This document shows positions 24,600 to 37,154 of a stretch of 37,402 nucleotides of DNA, in pieces. The translations under genes and the position numbers were made by a program. Each line of letters opens with the position of its first letter. Within the stretch, counting starts at the first letter, position 1. The notes under the pieces were generated by a model. The model had not been told where the DNA came from, made no database searches, and saw nothing but the letters and a program-made list of their open reading frames with translations. The DNA is taken from assembly GCA_944387035.1 (NCBI GenBank), contig CALXDJ010000018.1, positions 1 to 37,402 on the forward strand, read 5' to 3'. The stretch comes from an uncultured Oscillospiraceae bacterium (GTDB lineage: Bacteria; Bacillota; Clostridia; Oscillospirales; Oscillospiraceae).

Positions 24600-24632
24600 G
24601 TTCCTGATTTCTTGCGAAATCAGGAACTTTTT
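24600..24632. terminator. Terminator of the original tRNA-Val locus
   Basis: GTTCCTGATTTC and GAAATCAGGAAC form a perfect 12-bp stem around TTGC, flanked by an A-run on the left and a T-run on the right, so it works in both directions. It also ends the regulator transcript. Confidence 0.75.
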
Positions 24633-24677
24633 GGTGGAGACTACTGGACTCGAACCAGTGACCTCCTGCGTGTGAAG
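24601..24677. other. Left attachment site (att) of the integrated element
   Basis: These 77 bp match 37047-37123 in the same orientation with three mismatches, all in the first 14 bases; the last 63 bp (24615-24677) are identical. The block covers the terminator and the 3' part of tRNA-Val, the classical target of tyrosine integrases. Confidence 0.88.
24632..24677 (-). pseudogene. tRNA-Val 3' fragment
   Basis: Identical to 46 bases of the intact tRNA-Val at 37078-37123: CCA end, acceptor 3' strand, T arm, variable loop and the 3' side of the anticodon arm. The 5' half is missing. It is the displaced 3' end left by integration. Confidence 0.88.
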
Positions 24678-25000: not shown

Positions 25001-25381
25001 TCAAGCCCTCTTTTCTGCGACTACTTCGATTTCCACTTTTGCGTCCCGGGGTAGCCTGGCTACCTGGAAGGCAGCGCGAGCGGGGTAGGGCTGGGAGAAG
25101 AAGGCGCTGTAGACCTCATTCATAGAAGAAAAATCTTCCATGTCAGCCAGAAGTACAGTGGTTTTGACTACGTCAGTCATGGACAAACCAGCCTGCTCTA
25201 AAATCGCCTTGACGTTGGATAGAGAGACACGGGTCTGGTCTCGGATGTCTTCCGAGGGAAAGTCCCCGGTGACCGGATCAATGGGAAGCTGGCCGGAGAC
25301 GTAGATAGTGTGGTTGGTTTCGATAGCCTGGGAGTAGGGGCCAATGGCTGTTGGCGCGGAAGCTGTAGTGATATTTTTCAT
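25001..25381 (-). CDS. ridA: RidA family 2-iminopropanoate/2-aminoacrylate deaminase
   Basis: A 126-residue RidA/YjgF protein with the family landmarks GPYSQAI (14-20), YVSGQLPIDP, VVKTTVLLADM, the catalytic Arg102 in YPARAAFQVARLP, and the C-terminal KVEIEVVA. RidA hydrolyses reactive enamine/imine products of PLP enzymes to 2-oxoacids and ammonia, protecting other PLP enzymes. AAAGGAGG fixes the start at 25381; the open frame continues upstream without a site. It is divergent from an XRE regulator and near a MalY-type lyase whose reaction makes exactly this intermediate. It is the leftmost gene of the integrated element. Confidence 0.92.
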   Translation of the reverse strand: MKNITTASAPTAIGPYSQAIETNHTIYVSGQLPIDPVTGDFPSEDIRDQTRVSLSNVKAILEQAGLSMTDVVKTTVLLADMEDFSSMNEVYSAFFSQPYPARAAFQVARLPRDAKVEIEVVAEKRA

Positions 25382-25412
25382 AAGGTCCTCCTTTTGTTGA
25401 ACAGGAACAGAA

Positions 25413-25441
25413 TTGACTTTTTCTCCAGAATCAGATATCTT
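25413..25441 (+). promoter_or_regulatory. Promoter of the XRE regulator
   Basis: TTGACT (25413-25418) and TATCTT (25436-25441) are spaced by 17 bases, 40 bp upstream of the regulator start, in the ridA divergent region. Confidence 0.5.
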
Positions 25442-25480
25442 TAAATGAAAAGAGTGTGAAACTGCTGTGGGAGGATTACC

Positions 25481-26188
25481 ATGTCTGAGATCTCTGCTGA
25501 GGCAGGAAAACGCATCCGTTATTTCCGAAAGAGCCGCTCTATGACTCTGGAAGAGTTGGCCGCAGTCATCCATAAGAGTAAGGCCACCCTCTCCAAATAT
25601 GAGACTGGGGAGATCTCCATTGACCTGGATACCTTGTACGACCTGGCAGTTGCCCTGCAGGTCCGTGCTGAGCAGCTGCTTCCCGCAAGCTCTGGGAAGA
25701 CTGCTTCACCGCCTCGAGAGATTCACCCTGCTTTCTTTCGGGGACTAGAGCGGTTTTACGGTTATTACTTCGACGGACGCAATGGGCAGGTGAGCCGCTC
25801 TGCCTTTGATGTGTTTTCCCAGATCGATACAAACCGCTATAAGATTGCCATGTATATGTCCTACCGGGATCTGGAGCGGTACCAACAGGCTGAAAACACC
25901 TACTGGGGGTATATCGAGCATTTTGATGCACTTTCCCTCATCGAACTGGCCCACCAGAGCAACCCTATGGAGAAAGCCAGCATCCAGATTCTCTCTTCCT
26001 TCCTGGATGCGGAGACCAAGTGGGGCCTTTGGAACGGGGTTTCCTCCCGGCCCATGATGCCGGTGGCCCTGAAGATCCTTTTTTCCAAGAAACCGCTGAA
26101 GGAGGATGGAGAGCTGATCCGCCAACTGAAGGTCTCACAGGAGGATATACGGCGGATGAAATATTATAACATGTTCTCGGTGATATAG
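25481..26188 (+). CDS. XRE-family transcriptional regulator
   Basis: A 235-residue regulator. The N-terminal helix-turn-helix (residues 8-65) has the Cro/C1 pattern: GKRIRYFRKSRSMTLEELA, then KATLSKYETGE and DTLYDLAVALQV. The C-terminal 160 residues are a helical, Tyr/Phe-rich domain I do not recognise; it may bind a ligand or mediate dimerisation. GGGAGGATTACC precedes the ATG. It is divergent from ridA and convergent with the malY-like gene, so it probably controls the lyase/permease/ridA set. A large terminator hairpin separates it from malY. Confidence 0.88.
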   Translation: MSEISAEAGKRIRYFRKSRSMTLEELAAVIHKSKATLSKYETGEISIDLDTLYDLAVALQVRAEQLLPASSGKTASPPREIHPAFFRGLERFYGYYFDGRNGQVSRSAFDVFSQIDTNRYKIAMYMSYRDLERYQQAENTYWGYIEHFDALSLIELAHQSNPMEKASIQILSSFLDAETKWGLWNGVSSRPMMPVALKILFSKKPLKEDGELIRQLKVSQEDIRRMKYYNMFSVI

Positions 26189-26199
26189 ATCTCGGGGAA

Positions 26200-26243
26200 A
26201 TGCCGCGTCTGACAGGAAGTCCTGTTTGCCGCGGCATATTTTA
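26200..26243. terminator. Terminator between convergent genes
   Basis: ATGCCGCG (26200-26207) pairs with CGCGGCAT (26230-26237), with an inner ACAGGA/TCCTGT stem; ATTTTAT follows on the plus strand. It lies between the stops of the XRE and lyase genes. Confidence 0.7.
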
Positions 26244-26257
26244 TGCCGGAGGGGCGG

Positions 26258-27472
26258 TCAGCTCTTTCTGTGCCGGCGGATGGAATCCCGAATGCGCTCC
26301 AAGCCGGTCTGAATCATGGATCGAGGCATGGCCAGATTCAGACGGATATACCCCTCCGCGTTGTCTACGAACAAGGAGTTGCCCCCCTCCAGCAACACGC
26401 CGGCTTCGTTGGCAAAGAAACCCGGAAGATCCGCCACATCAGGCAGACACCGTCCCAGGTCCACCCAGGCCAGGTAGGTGGCATCGGAGATATTCATTAC
26501 AGCCTCGGGCAGTTCCAGGGACAGAAACTCCTGTACAAATGCAAAGTTGCCGTCCAGATAGTCCCGCAGCTCTTCCAGCCAGGGACCGCCCTTGTCGTAG
26601 GCTGCCTTGGCAGCGGTGAGAGACAGAGGATTCACCATACCGAAGAGCTTGTCCCGGGCCCTGAACTCCTCCCGGGTAGCCTGGTCCCGGATAATGATGT
26701 TGGAGAAGGCCATCCCCGCCAGGTTGAAGGTCTTGGTGGGGGCCATGCAGGTGATGAGCTTGGGGTAATCGGTCATAATCTTGGCCATGGGGATGTGGGA
26801 CTTCCCCTTTCGGGTCAGGTCGCAGTGAATCTCGTCGGACACCACCCACAGGTTGTACTTTTCCATAATGGCCGCCGCCTGGCGGAGTTCTTCCTCTGTC
26901 CAGATGTGACCAGTGGGGTTGTGGGGGTTACACCAGAATACCAGTTTGCATTTGGGGTCGGCGCACCGGCGCTCAAAGTCCTCTGCGTCCAATGTGAAGC
27001 AGCCTTTCTCGTCCTTCTTCAGGGGAGAGTGGAGTACGCCCCTGTTAGAGTACTCGGCGGCATGGAGAAAGTAGCCGTAGGCGGGGGTGTTGATGAGAAC
27101 CTTCTCGTTGGGGGCAGTCAGACTCTCCACCAGCTGGTAAATGGCGGGAATGATGCCGGGGGAGAAGCACAGCTCTTCCTGGGATACTTCCCAGCCGTAG
27201 TGCTCCAGACACCAGTGCCGGAAAGACTGGTAATACCCATCATCGTACACACCGGTATAGCCGAAGATGCGGCGATCGATTCGCTGGCGCATGGCGTCCA
27301 GAATCTCCGGGGCCACGCCGAACTCCATATCTGCCACCCACATGCGGACAAATTCCTCGTCCTTGTAGGGAAAGACTTTCTCGGGGCCGGCATGGAAGAT
27401 GTACTGCCGGAAGCCGTCGGTGTTCAGGGCGTTGGTTCCACGGCGGTCAATGATTTCGTCAAAGTGATACAT
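26258..27472 (-). CDS. MalY/PatB-type PLP-dependent C-S lyase (cystathionine beta-lyase family)
   Basis: A 404-residue class I/II aminotransferase-fold enzyme. It starts with FDEIIDRRGTNALNTDG, the family's Cys-S-lyase opening, and has the WVADMEFG motif (45-52), NPHNPTG (182-188), the cofactor-binding VSDEIH with Asp213 and the Schiff-base Lys247 in APTKTFNLAG. The family cleaves cystathionine, cysteine or cysteine S-conjugates to pyruvate, ammonia and a thiol, through 2-aminoacrylate. GCAGGAGG fixes the start; the longer frame overlaps the permease end. It follows the permease by 77 bp on the same strand, so import and cleavage of one amino acid are likely coupled. The exact substrate is not readable. 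Confidence 0.88.
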   Translation of the reverse strand: MYHFDEIIDRRGTNALNTDGFRQYIFHAGPEKVFPYKDEEFVRMWVADMEFGVAPEILDAMRQRIDRRIFGYTGVYDDGYYQSFRHWCLEHYGWEVSQEELCFSPGIIPAIYQLVESLTAPNEKVLINTPAYGYFLHAAEYSNRGVLHSPLKKDEKGCFTLDAEDFERRCADPKCKLVFWCNPHNPTGHIWTEEELRQAAAIMEKYNLWVVSDEIHCDLTRKGKSHIPMAKIMTDYPKLITCMAPTKTFNLAGMAFSNIIIRDQATREEFRARDKLFGMVNPLSLTAAKAAYDKGGPWLEELRDYLDGNFAFVQEFLSLELPEAVMNISDATYLAWVDLGRCLPDVADLPGFFANEAGVLLEGGNSLFVDNAEGYIRLNLAMPRSMIQTGLERIRDSIRRHRKS

Positions 27473-27549
27473 AGAAAACCTCCTGCAAATTCGCTCGGTA
27501 GTATGCTTGTATAGTAATATGTGATGCCATTGGGTACGGCAATCTTCTG

Positions 27550-28929
27550 TCATTCGTCTGCCTTTAGGGCTGAATCCACGATCTCCTGCCGACGTTTACC
27601 CAGTACGGAACTGTCCACCGAGTGGGTTTTCAGTGCGATGGCGGAGAAGATCAGGGGGATGATGACGATGGCGGCGGCCACTGCCGCGTCAGTAGATGTT
27701 AGATCCTTAAAAAGGGTGACGGCAATGATCAAGGCGCAGATGCCGCCCAACACGCTGCAGGCACGGAAAGCCCAGACGGGGATCTTAATGGAGCGCTTGG
27801 CAAACTGCTCGGGGTATTTCTTTGGGATGATGATGCATGCAGCGTTCAAATAAGCGTTGATGAGCATAGAGGGAATCATCAGCATGGTGATGGCGTTTCC
27901 CACGCTCATGCCGGTAAGAATAGGGACCAGAGCGATGATGTAGACCATCAGGAAGCAGAAGTAGGGATAGCCATCATTGCTTTTTTTGCGGAAAATCTGG
28001 GGCAGCCAACCGTCGTCCGCCATGTGGGACAAGGGCTCCCGGATCATGGCTAGCACCGCCAGGAAAGAGGAGATGATGGCACATACGCCGCCGCCGATGA
28101 TGAAAAAGGCGAAGGGCCCCTGGGACATGATGGCCCCGGCAGTGACGCTGAGGTTTTTGCCGGCAATCATATCGTAGGGAAGGACGCCGGCAGCCACATA
28201 CGACATCAGTCCGTAGACAGCAGACACCACCAGGCAGGTGACCAGGATGCCCAGGGGGATTGTACGCTTGGCATTTTTGGTAATGGGAACCACACCCACG
28301 GGACCCATGGTAGTGCCCTGGCAGGCCCAGCCCATCACCGCGATGGCGCTCAACATCCCCATAAAACCATTGCGGAAGAAGCCGCCGTCGTAGCTGGGAT
28401 TAAAAAAGACTGCTGCGTCCACATTGGGAAAACCCATCACGACAAAGAGAACTAGAGCACCAATCAGTAAAACTGTCGCCACGTTCTGGAACAGAGTGAC
28501 GATTCGATTGCCCCGGATTGTCAGCAGGAAAAAGACAGTCAACAAAATGGCGCTGGACAGCTTGCTGTGATCTGCCAGAACAGGCCACAGGCTGCTGAGA
28601 TAGTCGGTTAGGGAGAGGGCGTAGCCGGTGAAACCGAAGGCCCAGATCACGTTGGTCCATCCGCCGTAGCCGGTGAGCAGAGGCGGCAGCAGCATCCCCT
28701 TCATGCTGTAGTCGCCGCCCTCTACGACAAAAACGCCGGACATGGCCAGATTGTACCAGTAGGCCAACAGCATGTAGAATACACAGATTACGGTGATGGG
28801 AAGGATAGAGCGTCCTGTCATGCCGATGGCGTTTCCCAGGGTCACAAAGATACCGGAGCCAATGGCTCCGCCCACGCCCAGGCCAACGATATTCCAAAGG
28901 CCAAGTTGTTTTGCTGGCTTGTTGCTCAT
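27550..28929 (-). CDS. APC-superfamily amino acid permease
   Basis: A 459-residue integral membrane transporter with about 12 hydrophobic segments. The N-terminus LGLWNIVGLGVGGAIGSGIFVTLG is the substrate-binding helix 1 motif of APC amino acid transporters, and the helix 6 region has IAVMGWACQGTTMGPV. GGAGG precedes the ATG at 28929. It is the first gene of a two-gene operon with the C-S lyase. A promoter (29013-29040) and an inverted repeat (28968-28985) lie upstream. It probably imports the lyase substrate, perhaps by proton symport or antiport. Confidence 0.88.
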   Translation of the reverse strand: MSNKPAKQLGLWNIVGLGVGGAIGSGIFVTLGNAIGMTGRSILPITVICVFYMLLAYWYNLAMSGVFVVEGGDYSMKGMLLPPLLTGYGGWTNVIWAFGFTGYALSLTDYLSSLWPVLADHSKLSSAILLTVFFLLTIRGNRIVTLFQNVATVLLIGALVLFVVMGFPNVDAAVFFNPSYDGGFFRNGFMGMLSAIAVMGWACQGTTMGPVGVVPITKNAKRTIPLGILVTCLVVSAVYGLMSYVAAGVLPYDMIAGKNLSVTAGAIMSQGPFAFFIIGGGVCAIISSFLAVLAMIREPLSHMADDGWLPQIFRKKSNDGYPYFCFLMVYIIALVPILTGMSVGNAITMLMIPSMLINAYLNAACIIIPKKYPEQFAKRSIKIPVWAFRACSVLGGICALIIAVTLFKDLTSTDAAVAAAIVIIPLIFSAIALKTHSVDSSVLGKRRQEIVDSALKADE

Positions 28930-30671: not shown

Positions 30672-31100
30672 ATGAGCCAAAAAGAGAAATTTGCCCTCTA
30701 CCTGACGCCGGACATGAAGACGCGGCTGGAGCGGCGTTATACGGAAGATGGCAGCCGCAGTCTCACCGGATTTATCGAGAACGCCATCAACTTCTATCTG
30801 GACTATCTCAGCGCAAACAACGCTGGCATGTTTCTGCCGTCCTCAGTGCAGTCCTATCTGGACGGCCGGCTGGATCAGTTTGAAGATCGCATGGCGGTGC
30901 TGCTCTACAGGCAGTCGGTGGAACTGGATATGGTCATGAGTATTCTCGCGGACTGCGTCAACCTGGATGAGGAATACTTGCGGCGAAAGCGCGCAGAGAG
31001 CGTGGCCAACGTGAAAAAACTCAATGGACGACTGCGTCTGGAGCAGATCGCCAAGCGCGCACAGGAGCAGCGGGACGGTGATGATGGATGGCAAGACTGA
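30672..31100 (+). CDS. MobC/ribbon-helix-helix-like relaxosome accessory protein
   Basis: A 142-residue protein. The N-terminus (KFALYLTPDMKTRLERRYTEDGSR, in part) followed by SLTGFIENAINFYLDYL resembles a ribbon-helix-helix DNA-binding fold. The rest is helical and rich in Arg, Glu and Leu. AAGGAGG fixes the start at 30672; the longer open frame upstream crosses the oriT-like repeats. It overlaps the relaxase start by 13 bases, so the two are coupled. DNA-binding at oriT is inferred. Confidence 0.72.
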   Translation: MSQKEKFALYLTPDMKTRLERRYTEDGSRSLTGFIENAINFYLDYLSANNAGMFLPSSVQSYLDGRLDQFEDRMAVLLYRQSVELDMVMSILADCVNLDEEYLRRKRAESVANVKKLNGRLRLEQIAKRAQEQRDGDDGWQD

Positions 31101-33055
31101 TCGTCAAGAGTCCGTATATCAAGTGTGGCGGTGGTCAGGGTGCAGACGGTTACATGAGGTACATTGCGACGCGGGAGCGGGTGGAGATCATCCCGGATGA
31201 CCGCCCGCCAACCCGCAAGCAGGAGCAGCTCATCACAAAGCTGACGAAAGACTTCCCGGATGTGAAAGAGCTGCTGGAGTACGAGGATTACGTGCAGAAG
31301 CCTACAAAGGCCAACGCCTCGTCGTTCATCACCCTGGCGCTAGAGGAGCACTGGAAGGAGGTGCAGCAGACGGATGGCTACATGAAGTACATCGCAACAC
31401 GTCCTCGCGCTGAGCGCCTGGGTGACCATGGCCTGTTCGGTGACGCAGATCGTGTGGACTTGGATGCCGCCATGTCCGAGCTGGAGCACTACACCGGCAA
31501 CGTCTGGACGCACATCATCTCCCTGCATCGAGAAGACGCAGAGCGTCTCGGTTACAACAACGCACAGGCATGGCGGGCCCTGCTCCGTGCTCACCGTAAC
31601 GACATCGCGGCAGCTATGCATATCCCGCCCCAGGACTTCCGGTGGTACGCGGCGTTCCACAATGAAGGACACCATCCTCACGTTCACATGATGGCGTGGT
31701 CAGTGAAACCGGGACAAGCACACCTGGATCGGGATGGCATCCGGCAGATGAAGTCTCAACTCACCAACGATATCTTCCAACAGGAACTGCTCCACGTCTA
31801 CGAACAGAAGTCTGTCTCCCGGGACGAGTTGGTGAAAGAGACTCGGAAGGTTATGCTGGAGCTGTCCCGGCAGATGCAGGAGACGGTGTGTGAGCACACC
31901 CAGGCAGAGCAGATGATCTGGAAACTGTCCCAACAGCTGGGTGAGGTCAAAGGCAAGAAGTCCTATGGTTATCTCCCGAGGCCCATAAAGCGGCAGGTGG
32001 ATGAGATCGTGGATCAGCTGGAGCAAATCCCCATTGTCAACGAGTGCTATCAGAAATGGTGGGAGCTCCAGTGTCAGGTGAACGAGTTCTACTCGGGAAA
32101 GAAACAGCAGCGTCCGCCGCTGTCAAAGCAGAAAGAGTTCCGGGCCATCCGGAACGCGGTCATCCGGGAGGCGGAGAATATCCGCCTGGGCAAGATCACC
32201 TTCGAGGATGAGAAGAGGGAAGAGCAGGGCGAGTGGGTGGAAAACTGGGAGGTCTCCTATGAGTGCCTGCGGCTGCGGGCCAGGATCGAAGACAACAAGC
32301 TGCCGCTGGATCAGCGGGATGAGGCAGTGGAAGATCTGGAGAGGCTGGCAGAGTACGGTGATGTCTACGCTCAATACTTTCTGGGACTGCTGTACCGGGA
32401 CGGCGGCTTGCTGCTGCCGGATGCGGAACAAGCCGCCCACTGGCTGGAACTGGCGGCAAAGCGAGATCTGCCGGCCGCCCAGTATGCTCTCGGCAAGCTA
32501 TATATCTCTGATGATCCGGGGGTACATGACGTTGATGATGGAATCCAATGGTTGGAGAGTGCAGCTCGAAACGGAAACACCGACGTCGCCTATCGCCTAG
32601 GCAAGGAATACCTGACGGGCACGTCCGTGCAAAAGGACGCAGTCAAAGCAACAGAGTATCTCTGCTATGCAGCCGCTCAGAACCATCCATGGGCCAGCTA
32701 CCTGTTGGGGAAGCTGTACCTCACTGGCAACGGCGTTCCCAAAGACGAAGAAGCAGCCTGGAACTGCTTCCGGATGGCGAATGCGTATGGTCATCCCTAT
32801 GCTCGGTATGTTCTGGAACGCCAAGAGCAGTGGCAGCGTCCAGAACTGCTGCTGACAGTGTCCCGCCTGCTCTACCACATGAGCAATATCTTCCGGGATA
32901 ACGCACCTGCTGTGCCTGCACAGCCCAGGCTGCACATTGACCGCAAGCGAATGCAGGAACTCCAGGAGATGCGGATCGCCCTGGGGCATCAGCCTGACGA
33001 CCATGAAGAAGAGCAAACGCAAACCTGGGGCGGCATGACCATGAAGGGGTGGTAA
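31088..33055 (+). CDS. MobP3-type relaxase with C-terminal Sel1 repeats
   Basis: A 655-residue relaxase. The metal-binding motif HHPHVH (H195-H200, with H196, H198 and H200 as ligands) lies in the N-terminal domain. Two related segments, DGYMRYIATRERVE at 20-33 and DGYMKYIATRPRAE at 97-110, appear to be an ancient duplication; their Tyr residues are candidates for nicking. A coiled, charged middle (250-400) follows. Residues about 420-580 form four or five Sel1/TPR-like repeats (YAQYFLGLLYRDG, AQYALGKLYIS, VAYRLGKEYLTG, ASYLLGKLYLTG). The tail is acidic. No type IV secretion genes are present, so transfer would need a helper. The Sel1 part may contact the host coupling protein. Confidence 0.87.
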   Translation: MARLIVKSPYIKCGGGQGADGYMRYIATRERVEIIPDDRPPTRKQEQLITKLTKDFPDVKELLEYEDYVQKPTKANASSFITLALEEHWKEVQQTDGYMKYIATRPRAERLGDHGLFGDADRVDLDAAMSELEHYTGNVWTHIISLHREDAERLGYNNAQAWRALLRAHRNDIAAAMHIPPQDFRWYAAFHNEGHHPHVHMMAWSVKPGQAHLDRDGIRQMKSQLTNDIFQQELLHVYEQKSVSRDELVKETRKVMLELSRQMQETVCEHTQAEQMIWKLSQQLGEVKGKKSYGYLPRPIKRQVDEIVDQLEQIPIVNECYQKWWELQCQVNEFYSGKKQQRPPLSKQKEFRAIRNAVIREAENIRLGKITFEDEKREEQGEWVENWEVSYECLRLRARIEDNKLPLDQRDEAVEDLERLAEYGDVYAQYFLGLLYRDGGLLLPDAEQAAHWLELAAKRDLPAAQYALGKLYISDDPGVHDVDDGIQWLESAARNGNTDVAYRLGKEYLTGTSVQKDAVKATEYLCYAAAQNHPWASYLLGKLYLTGNGVPKDEEAAWNCFRMANAYGHPYARYVLERQEQWQRPELLLTVSRLLYHMSNIFRDNAPAVPAQPRLHIDRKRMQELQEMRIALGHQPDDHEEEQTQTWGGMTMKGW

Positions 33056-33847: not shown

Positions 33848-35005
33848 ATGGGGAAGAAACGAGCTAACGGAGAAGGCAGCATCCGCAAACGGAAGGATGG
33901 CCGGTGGGAGGGGTTCTACACGGCCTCATATGACCCGGTGACCGGGAAGCAGAAAATCAAGAATGTCCTGGGAAAGACTCAGGCAGAGGTCAAGGAGAAG
34001 CTGAAAAAGGCCATTGCAGACAGCCAGCGACTGGACATGAACCGCAGCGGTACCCATACGGTAAAAAGCTGGGTGCAGATGTGGTATGAAGTCTATGCCG
34101 AGCCCCGGCTTCGGGAGAACACCAAGGACTATTATCTAAACTACATCAACAACCACATCATCCCCCAACTGGGGGACATCAAGCTGGACAAGCTTACCAC
34201 GATCCAGATCCAGAAGTTCTACAACGATCTCCAGAAGAACGGGCGGGTGCAGCGGTATCAGCACATCCAGCTGAAGAACAAGGGACTGAGCATCCGGGTG
34301 GTCCACGGCATCCATACCCTGCTGAACAACTGCCTGGAGCAGGCCGTGGCAGAACGGCTGATTCTGGTGAACCCCGCGAGAGGCTGTAAGCTGCCAAAGA
34401 TGGAGAAGCGGGAGATGAAGGTCCTGCCGGAAGAGAAGATCCGACCCTATCTGATGGAAGCGGACAAGCGGGGACTGCTGGCACCCTTCTACCTGGAACT
34501 GACTACGGGACTGAGACGGGGAGAGTTGCTGGCCCTCCTCTGGACGGATCTGGACGTGGAGAACCGAACCATCTCCATCACGAAGCAGGTGACGCGCACC
34601 AAGGGAGAACTGGTGGTGAGCCAGCCAAAGACCCATAATTCCATCCGCGTCTTGCCGGTCTCACAGCAGGCAGTGGAGTTGCTGGTGGAGGAGCACAAGA
34701 AGCACCCGGGAAATCCATACATGTTCCCGTCACCCAAGACGGGAGGAATGTTCGATCCGGACTCCTTCCGGCATACCCACGAGAAGATCCTGAAAGCCAT
34801 CGGTGCGGAACATATCCGGTTCCACGATCTCCGGCATACCTTCGCAACGCTGTCTCTGAAAAACGGAGTGGATGTGAAGACTCTGTCCAGCACCCTGGGG
34901 CATTACAGTGCGGGATTCACCCTTAGTACCTACACCCACGCCACGCCAGACATGATGCGGGAGGCAGCGGATACAGTGGGAGATGTGATTGATCAAATGA
35001 TATAA
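33848..35005 (+). CDS. Tyrosine integrase
   Basis: A 385-residue phage-type integrase. An arm-binding N-terminus (GEGSIRKRKDGRW) leads into the SAM-like core-binding domain (residues 70-170) and the catalytic domain, with Arg223 (TTGLRRGE), His326 and Arg329 (HDLRHTFA), His352 (LGHYS) and Tyr362 (STYTHA). All five signature residues are present, so it should be active. It is 2.1 kb from the intact tRNA-Val and within the att-flanked segment, and so is the likely agent of its integration. GGAGAG precedes the ATG. Confidence 0.94.
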   Translation: MGKKRANGEGSIRKRKDGRWEGFYTASYDPVTGKQKIKNVLGKTQAEVKEKLKKAIADSQRLDMNRSGTHTVKSWVQMWYEVYAEPRLRENTKDYYLNYINNHIIPQLGDIKLDKLTTIQIQKFYNDLQKNGRVQRYQHIQLKNKGLSIRVVHGIHTLLNNCLEQAVAERLILVNPARGCKLPKMEKREMKVLPEEKIRPYLMEADKRGLLAPFYLELTTGLRRGELLALLWTDLDVENRTISITKQVTRTKGELVVSQPKTHNSIRVLPVSQQAVELLVEEHKKHPGNPYMFPSPKTGGMFDPDSFRHTHEKILKAIGAEHIRFHDLRHTFATLSLKNGVDVKTLSSTLGHYSAGFTLSTYTHATPDMMREAADTVGDVIDQMI

Positions 35006-35076: not shown

Positions 35077-35658
35077 TTATGTCCAAGTATCCCTATCGTT
35101 GTTTACTTGGACGTCTTCTGGGCGCATAAAGAAAACGGTTAGTTTGCATATGAACATGTAATATCCAATCTGCGACAATGCAGCGATTCGATGGACAATG
35201 CCCTTCTGGAGGAGAGATAAAAATGTAGTTCTCGATAAAGTTGTAAGTAAACTAAAATCAATTAGTAAATCTTGAGTTTCTGGATCGGGAATATAAAATA
35301 AACGAAAAGTGCGATTCCCTTTTATGGAGATTAAATCTGTTGCTTTCTTTGAGAATTCTTCACAAGGATGAATTGCTGCAAATATAAGATTGTCATCTCG
35401 GACAGCATCGCATGTATTTGTAAGTAGTTGGGCCTTTCGCATAATACATGTCTGTTCTCCACTTTCACTGGTATATAAGAAAGGAATCTCGGTATAGATA
35501 TCTCCTTGATATAACTCTTTATCTTTTGGGTGAGCTACAAGCTTTGGATTGCCATACAGATCTTCAAATTGTTCCATAGCTCGTTTGGCCTGATCACGAG
35601 TATATGGACTAATACTTGGAAATAATTCCTTGCAAAAATCTATGAACTCTGGAATCAT
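35077..35658 (-). CDS. Cargo protein C, unknown function
   Basis: A 193-residue soluble protein of unrecognised family and AT-rich codon use. Residues 48-61 (ELYQGDIYTEIPFL) lead to a strand and a TNTCD segment (80-84) followed by Asp88-Asp89. This polar Cys/Asp cluster between hydrophobic strands looks like a functional site. The last 60 residues have two hydrophobic stretches. AGAGGTGG precedes the ATG. Third gene of an operon lying between the integrase and the att site, where defence or anti-defence cargo is often carried; function is unknown. Confidence 0.7.
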   Translation of the reverse strand: MIPEFIDFCKELFPSISPYTRDQAKRAMEQFEDLYGNPKLVAHPKDKELYQGDIYTEIPFLYTSESGEQTCIMRKAQLLTNTCDAVRDDNLIFAAIHPCEEFSKKATDLISIKGNRTFRLFYIPDPETQDLLIDFSLLTTLSRTTFLSLLQKGIVHRIAALSQIGYYMFICKLTVFFMRPEDVQVNNDRDTWT

Positions 35659-35693
35659 TGCAACATTCCACCTCTGGAGTGATAAGTCGACAG

Positions 35694-35999
35694 TTATTTA
35701 TATAGGCTAAATATGTTTATTCCCAGGGGCTTAGATGCCCTAGATATCATTGCCTTATATAAGTCCTGTTCTTTTTCTGTAAAATCTCGAAGTTCACCAA
35801 AGAAGCTTTGAGCCTGCTGGCGGGGGCTTTCTGAAAAGAACTGTTGATATAAGTTCGTAGAAGACGTATATTCCTGAGAAATCGCGGCTGGGAAAAACGA
35901 GCTCGATGCATTAGGAAGAGGAATTGTTATAAATGTGGCCACAACAATTCCAGCAGAAATAGCCGCTGACGAAACTGTTTGGCAAAAATTATTAGACAT
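35694..35999 (-). CDS. Cargo protein B, small possibly membrane-linked
   Basis: A 101-residue protein. Residues about 8-28 are hydrophobic (VSSAAISAGIVVATFITIPL), compatible with a signal anchor or a buried helix; no charged residues precede it. The C-terminal half is polar and helical (SPRQQAQSFFGELRDFTEKE). The ATG at 35999 has GAGAGGTGA nine bases upstream and overlaps the stop of gene A; a GTG four codons earlier lacks such spacing. Not recognised. Likely translationally coupled with gene A. Confidence 0.6.
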   Translation of the reverse strand: MSNNFCQTVSSAAISAGIVVATFITIPLPNASSSFFPAAISQEYTSSTNLYQQFFSESPRQQAQSFFGELRDFTEKEQDLYKAMISRASKPLGINIFSLYK

Positions 36000-36747
36000 A
36001 AACAATGTCACCTCTCTCGATTAAAATAGGGAGAGATTTTGAAATAAATTTTTTAGAAAGTTCAAAAATTTTTTGGGGGGTGTCTTTCCCAGAAAGATAA
36101 GAACTCTTTGTATTAAATGCTAATCGGTCATTAATATCAATATTTACAGTCAAAGTATGGGCAGTTTCTTTCATGCCATACAAAGAACCAGGCACAATTT
36201 GAGTCCCTTCAAGATATCGATGATTACTAATCTCTACGTTGACGAAATAAGTATCATCAACGGTTAGTGTTGTTCGGAATGCGATATCCTTTATGTCTGG
36301 CGAAATATTTCCCTTAAAAAAGTGACCAACGATGAAAGATACAGGGTCATCAATTCCATCTTCGCTAGAAAACTCAGTTTGCATATTAAGCCCAGAATAA
36401 TAAAAAGCAGGCATATTTTCACGCTCAAGGCCGAAAAGACTGAGGCTTGCTAAAATCTTATCCCGCATATCTTCCATATAGGAAAAACACGAAGCAAGGT
36501 CATTCCAAAAATGAGAGTCAAACATAGTGGTAACTTGTACGTTGTTGCCAGATACCATTAACTGTGAATGACCATTTTTTGAAGTAGCCGTTATTCTTGG
36601 AAATTCAGGAGGAGCCTCATTAGGTATAGGTATTAAGTTAAAAGGGGTCATAAAATTTGAGAACACTTTTTCCAAATTAAATAGGTTTTCACGCATGTTC
36701 GCTACATTGGGAAAAACAATATTAAAGCTACCAGATCTGATCTTCAT
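35992..36747 (-). CDS. Cargo protein A, resembling TIGR04255-type proteins
   Basis: A 251-residue soluble protein, first of three cotranscribed genes. The segment around residues 45-70 (PPEFPRITATSKNGHSQLMV), then an amphipathic helix and a C-terminal beta-rich half, recall the sporadically distributed TIGR04255 proteins of unknown function. The resemblance is weak. AGGGAG precedes the ATG and TATAAT lies about 50 bp upstream. Base composition is clearly AT-richer than the element backbone, which suggests separate acquisition. Confidence 0.68.
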   Translation of the reverse strand: MKIRSGSFNIVFPNVANMRENLFNLEKVFSNFMTPFNLIPIPNEAPPEFPRITATSKNGHSQLMVSGNNVQVTTMFDSHFWNDLASCFSYMEDMRDKILASLSLFGLERENMPAFYYSGLNMQTEFSSEDGIDDPVSFIVGHFFKGNISPDIKDIAFRTTLTVDDTYFVNVEISNHRYLEGTQIVPGSLYGMKETAHTLTVNIDINDRLAFNTKSSYLSGKDTPQKIFELSKKFISKSLPILIERGDIVYV

Positions 36748-37046: not shown

Positions 37047-37123
37047 TTCCTAATTTCTCACGAAATCAGGAACTTTTTGGTGGAGACTACTGGACTCGAA
37101 CCAGTGACCTCCTGCGTGTGAAG
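37047..37123. other. Right attachment site (att) of the integrated element
   Basis: Direct copy of 24601-24677, lying inside the intact tRNA-Val and its downstream terminator. The three mismatches fall in the terminator stem, which is less perfect here; this copy was probably supplied by the element. Confidence 0.88.
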
Positions 37124-37154
37124 CAGGCGCTCTAACCAGCTGAGCTAAGCCTCC
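37078..37154 (-). tRNA. tRNA-Val(CAC)
   Basis: Cloverleaf with acceptor GGAGGCT/AGTCTCC, D arm AGCTCAGCTGGTTAGAGC, anticodon stem CCTGC/GCAGG with loop TTCACAC (anticodon CAC), T arm with GGTTCGAGTCC, and encoded CCA. It is intact because the integrated element restores the 3' half. Confidence 0.95.

Follow-up and report, generated by a model that had tools for sequence, protein, structure and literature searches.

A conserved three-gene operon of mobile elements, with a predicted MazF/CcdB-fold protein, as a candidate phage-exclusion module

The DNA discussed here, which we call the window, is the whole stretch of 37,402 nucleotides analysed from contig CALXDJ010000018.1 (assembly GCA_944387035.1) of an uncultured Oscillospiraceae bacterium. 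A mobile element at the end of the window carries three adjacent genes, A, B and C. This trio is a conserved unit in distant lineages, and the operon is for that reason more than a chance arrangement. We tentatively read it, at a little short of an even chance, as a mobile module of toxin-antitoxin (TA) descent that is probably expressed while the element is dormant and most likely excludes competing phages.

A conserved trio

The three genes are as follows.
35992..36747, minus strand: gene A, 251 residues, phrog_22817 family
35694..35999, minus strand: gene B, 101 residues (ATG start)
35077..35658, minus strand: gene C, 193 residues, phrog_4575 family

The three minus-strand open reading frames (ORFs) of a preliminary description, made from the letters of the window alone, are thus confirmed, including the overlap of the first two: A and B share 8 bp, with a gap of 35 bp from B to C. 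An alternative GTG start would give B 105 residues, and the starts of all three are preceded by a purine-rich stretch like a ribosome-binding site (read by eye). The composition does differ from that of the element backbone, as had been claimed, the G+C content being 0.37 in the operon, 0.558 in the integrase gene and 0.578 over the whole window. The promoter that the same description gave the operon was not borne out, as the 10 sigma-70-like sites found compare with 8.4 +/- 3.0 in shuffles, which is chance level.

Co-occurrence of the three genes had been named as a check, and they are indeed found together, incomplete versions being those at our loci L008 and L015. In the window's phylum and Leptospira, A-B-C is present at five of the six places with C, these being the window, L001, L007, L050 and the Leptospira phage record KF114877 (L004, of which L009 is a copy); at the sixth, L008, C is truncated, a remnant is left of B, and A is missing. 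A second branch was reached through phage VW-6S and then by a scan of IMG/VR, which gave 22 loci. In 21 of these A (about 250 residues or more, by longest ORF), B (102-159 residues) and C are intact and in that order, and in the remaining one, L086, A is present and C is open in part only. One E. coli allele accounts, through near-copies, for 11 of the 22, and a further locus is a copy of VW-6S, so that there are fewer independent places than 22. A and C were also found in phage Dobby, in a second Pseudomonas phage (record OQ658368) and in a Phocaeicola plasmid record.

The E. coli allele is present in 92 of 5,426 complete E. coli genomes, and one copy of the E. coli trio is at NZ_CP028578.2 3763763-3765490. 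Few of the other genomes sampled have a member of the C family: 1 of 394 in the window's order (its own genome), 3 of 398 in the phylum, own genome included, and 2 of 246 in another order, including the centre genome, already known as a carrier of C.

The three proteins

Protein C - by sequence comparison the C proteins of the two branches form a single family; hhalign finds them homologous (99.6%, E 2.4e-24), and the hidden Markov model (HMM) of either branch retrieves the other. Window C matches phrog_4575, which has no function assigned there, over residues 5-186 (E 4.6e-25), and a protein search with it gave 130 relatives, 120 of them listed. None of the three window proteins has a meaningful match in Pfam or NCBIfam; in the case of C there is no Pfam family at E <= 1 and no NCBIfam match, and a list of 25 families for 71 C members, which may stop at that number, does not include PF02452. 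C is predicted to have a MazF/CcdB fold at about residues 47-181, with an additional N-terminal helical part. A TNTCD...DD site had been picked out as conserved-looking, and this is borne out in part: of N81-T82-C83-D84, three residues hold up well in the alignment of 71 (N81 and C83 in 71, D84 in 70), whereas the two later aspartates are less constant (D88 in 52, D89 in 42). The 82 aligned C proteins from both branches all have Q51, G52, D53, N81, C83, L161, G165, K172 and R179, and 81 of them have D84.

Protein A - window A matches phrog_22817 (E 1.3e-30), again with no function assigned there, and a search seeded with eight aligned A proteins gave 91 relatives. The predicted structure is an alpha/beta fold, with an arrangement that may loosely resemble TATA-binding protein or guanidino kinases. 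With regard to the weak resemblance to TIGR04255 suggested earlier, profile support is lacking for the window protein, as neither it nor any of 63 alignment rows has a match at E <= 1 to this family (cut-off 30 bits). What can be kept of the suggestion is that the protein in the A place of VW-6S is a TIGR04255 protein (86.9 bits, E 1.8e-24, above the 30-bit cut-off), and A of the E. coli trio is annotated as one. Judged by their sequences, the two A families would either be beyond profile reach of each other, or the A slot takes exchangeable proteins.

A TIGR04255 gene is present in 25 of the 60 genomes searched, one of them the window's own genome, where it is a separate gene (L062, C27:5970-6725), and a match to C is absent from the 12 TIGR04255 loci fetched. 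The NCBIfam naming of these proteins says only "sporadic", and neither TIGR04255 nor phrog_4575 is named in the open-licence literature searched. Distant A-like genes were also seen at L016:5808-7442 and L017:9034-10759 (E 6.8e-9 and 5.8e-8), and behind each come a second gene, these two showing no similarity to one another, and a HEPN-like ORF (by eye); a SIR2 gene is beside the L016 set and an FRG gene beside that of L017.

Protein B - B of the window has a hydrophobic N-terminal stretch, best at residues 12-28 (shuffle p 0.003), a variable middle and the C-terminal end NIFSLYK. Most of the 14 B proteins compared have similar ends (NIFSLYK, NVFDMYK and NFFDYVK in one branch; NLWDLYAD, SLWDLYLD and NISDLYEE in the other), and are otherwise short and variable.

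The carrying element and other neighbourhoods

The other features of the element are listed here.
24615..24677, no strand: attL, 63-bp direct repeat of the tRNA-Val 3' end, exact match to 37061-37123
31088..33055, plus strand: MobP3-family relaxase with Sel1 repeats (NF041499, E 4.4e-117; PF18555, PF08238)
33848..35005, plus strand: tyrosine integrase (PF00589, E 7.9e-25)
37061..37123, no strand: attR, 63-bp repeat overlapping the tRNA-Val 3' end
37078-37154, minus strand: tRNA-Val

As the exact 63-bp direct repeat is found at both ends, we put the limits of the element at 24615 and 37123, giving 12.5 kb, with the trio between the integrase gene and the right end. The att site proposed earlier is therefore upheld, and so is the view of the trio as a cargo operon beside the integrase with no assigned function. 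The opposite end of the element (25001-28929) has an amino-acid cargo of a class I/II aminotransferase (PF00155), an amino acid permease (PF13520) and, by eye, RidA-like and helix-turn-helix (HTH) regulator-like ORFs.

Elsewhere the trio is directly downstream of the CI repressor gene, on the same strand, in VW-6S; it follows HTH-repressor-like ORFs (by eye) in L069 and L071, is near prophage lysis-like ORFs in L050 and L007, with HicAB next in L050, and adjoins the portal gene in Dobby. In the one E. coli copy opened it is in a lambdoid prophage, on the opposite strand, between holin and antiterminator Q. In the Lachnospiraceae metagenome-assembled genome L001 (4927-10515) the trio, DUF4238, DprA and phosphoribosyltransferase genes are side by side near an integrase gene, and this stretch is a small island of defence-associated genes. 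Going by domain content only, DUF4238 and DprA-phosphoribosyltransferase are the contents of two systems validated in PMC9122126. The truncated copy in L008 adjoins type I restriction-modification and Fic genes. In KF114877 (5627-8936) the trio is directly followed by hxsA, hxsD, hxsB and hxsC, whose annotation is that of a His-Xaa-Ser radical-SAM system.

Housekeeping surroundings had been named as a point that would tell against a defence role, and in the neighbourhoods read none were seen for C. The finding for A and B is different in one case, L015 (8983-10082), where A and a B-like ORF lie between amidase-like and truA-like ORFs (by eye) in chromosomal, housekeeping-like surroundings; this is either an incomplete or a different version of the trio. 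The sites as a whole fit accessory genes of dormant elements, and several such sites are known for phage exclusion.

Proposed role and alternatives

The trio would belong with the TA-like multi-gene mobile systems, and is itself unnamed and without a PADLOC model. It bears a likeness to the type II toxins MazF/PemK and CcdB, with which C has its predicted fold in common and the trio the presence of a small partner, B, just upstream. With MazF/PemK, C also shares GD on the first strand and, in a weak profile alignment (hhalign 0.3% against 11 PemK proteins), an Asn on the second. It differs from them in having no match to their family profile and in its N-terminal helical extension, and the trio differs in its third gene, A. 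RexAB of phage lambda is comparable by position only, in that the VW-6S trio is downstream of CI, and has two genes against three. The multi-component defence systems PD-lambda-2 and PD-T4-9, compared by their description in PMC9519451, resemble the trio as TA-like operons with a third component and overlapping ORFs; the word MazF is absent from the main text of that paper.

In the tentative reading of the trio as a TA-derived phage-exclusion module, C would be the effector, and its activity would depend on invariant residues of its own (N-[ST]-C, K and R) in place of the Arg and Thr/Ser that are the catalytic pair of MazF. The C-terminal end of B may bind and restrain C, by analogy with MazE-type antitoxins, whose tails bind and restrain their toxin, and the hydrophobic N-terminus of B may anchor the complex at the membrane. 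A could be a sensor or adaptor that frees C upon infection by another phage, and the freed C would then halt growth before phage is made. Position and neighbours suggest that the role may be one of defence or anti-defence. If the trio does protect against phages, it adds a system found in 92 of 5,426 E. coli genomes by one allele alone, an effector of MazF fold whose active site is new, and a testable role for some TIGR04255 proteins. It is possible, though doubtful, that all of this holds together as an anti-phage system, so far unnamed and spanning phyla. C would then keep the MazF fold but have exchanged the ribonuclease site for a new N-[ST]-C-D site of catalysis or ligand binding; the C-terminal end of B would hold C in check, and the two unrelated-looking A families of the one slot would be interchangeable sensors that trigger it.

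Several observations weigh against phage exclusion by such a module. In the weak alignment with PemK the place of the MazF Arg holds Arg in 22 of 71 C proteins, and the eight commonest residues at the other catalytic place, which cover 69 of 71 C rows, include neither Thr nor Ser, against Arg and Thr/Ser each in 11 of 11 PemK proteins. Position 75 of C, next to the aligned Arg place, is however Lys in 62 of 71, so that a shift of one residue would put a basic residue there. No similarity between the A family and its TIGR04255 counterpart is detectable by profile comparison, which weakens any single story for A, and L015 has A and the B-like ORF without C. The hydrophobic N-terminus of B is better than shuffles (p < 0.05) in 5 of 14 only, and the common C-terminal end is missing from B of the Leptospira record. 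PADLOC-DB 2.0.0 gave no match at E <= 1 for the window proteins and 16 other trio proteins, nor for the control, the DUF4238 protein of L001. Finally, genes for addiction and fitness are likewise found at such positions in prophages.

Two alternatives lead the others, one of addiction and one of non-toxic exclusion at the membrane. That the trio is a plain tripartite addiction module retaining its element or prophage, with A a chaperone or regulator and no anti-phage role, we consider unlikely but worth keeping in view. It would suit the predicted fold of C, the A/B overlap, which resembles that of many TA operons, the carriers (an integrative element, prophages and a small plasmid record) and the HicAB pair adjoining the trio in L050. 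However there are three conserved genes where two would do, A is larger than C and yet is retained in the operon, and the DUF4238 and DprA-phosphoribosyltransferase neighbours in L001 also argue against it.

We think it distinctly unlikely that the trio is a non-toxic superinfection-exclusion or surface-conversion module, with B a small membrane peptide, and A and C, the latter a MazF fold without the MazF catalytic pair, as regulators. The hydrophobic N-terminus of window B, the lack of conservation of the catalytic residues at the weakly aligned places of C and the position after CI in VW-6S are all consistent with it, but in 9 of 14 B proteins the hydrophobic stretch is not above shuffles (p < 0.05), and it is in C that the invariant residues sit, N81 and C83 included.

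It is improbable that the trio is the published three-gene system of the P2 hotspot, which we take to be the one named Rst_3HP (a name that occurs in four papers of the open-licence literature searched), or a distant branch of it. The portal-adjacent, P2-family site in Dobby recalls that system, for in E. coli P2-like phages the gpA-gpQ stretch is a defence hotspot, where a set of three genes without clear predicted domains protects against P1, according to PMC9122126. Compared by description, the trio is not seen in the 13 E. coli records that span the hotspot among the 60 listed (of 2,220), none of which has a gene named TIGR04255, and the E. coli copy opened is, as described above, in a lambdoid prophage. 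The two three-gene hotspots opened, both of E. coli P2-like phages, have genes of other sizes, absent from the HMM matches to A or C.
L094:4534-6693: three other genes, 376, 129 and 212 residues, the second with DUF4325
L095:1573-4457: three other genes, 612, 89 and 156 residues

A metabolic or peptide-modification cargo unrelated to conflict is very hard to credit, as neither annotation nor inspection by eye showed any hxs genes in the remaining neighbourhoods read, and the one point for it is the hxsADBC set directly after the trio in KF114877 and its copy L009.
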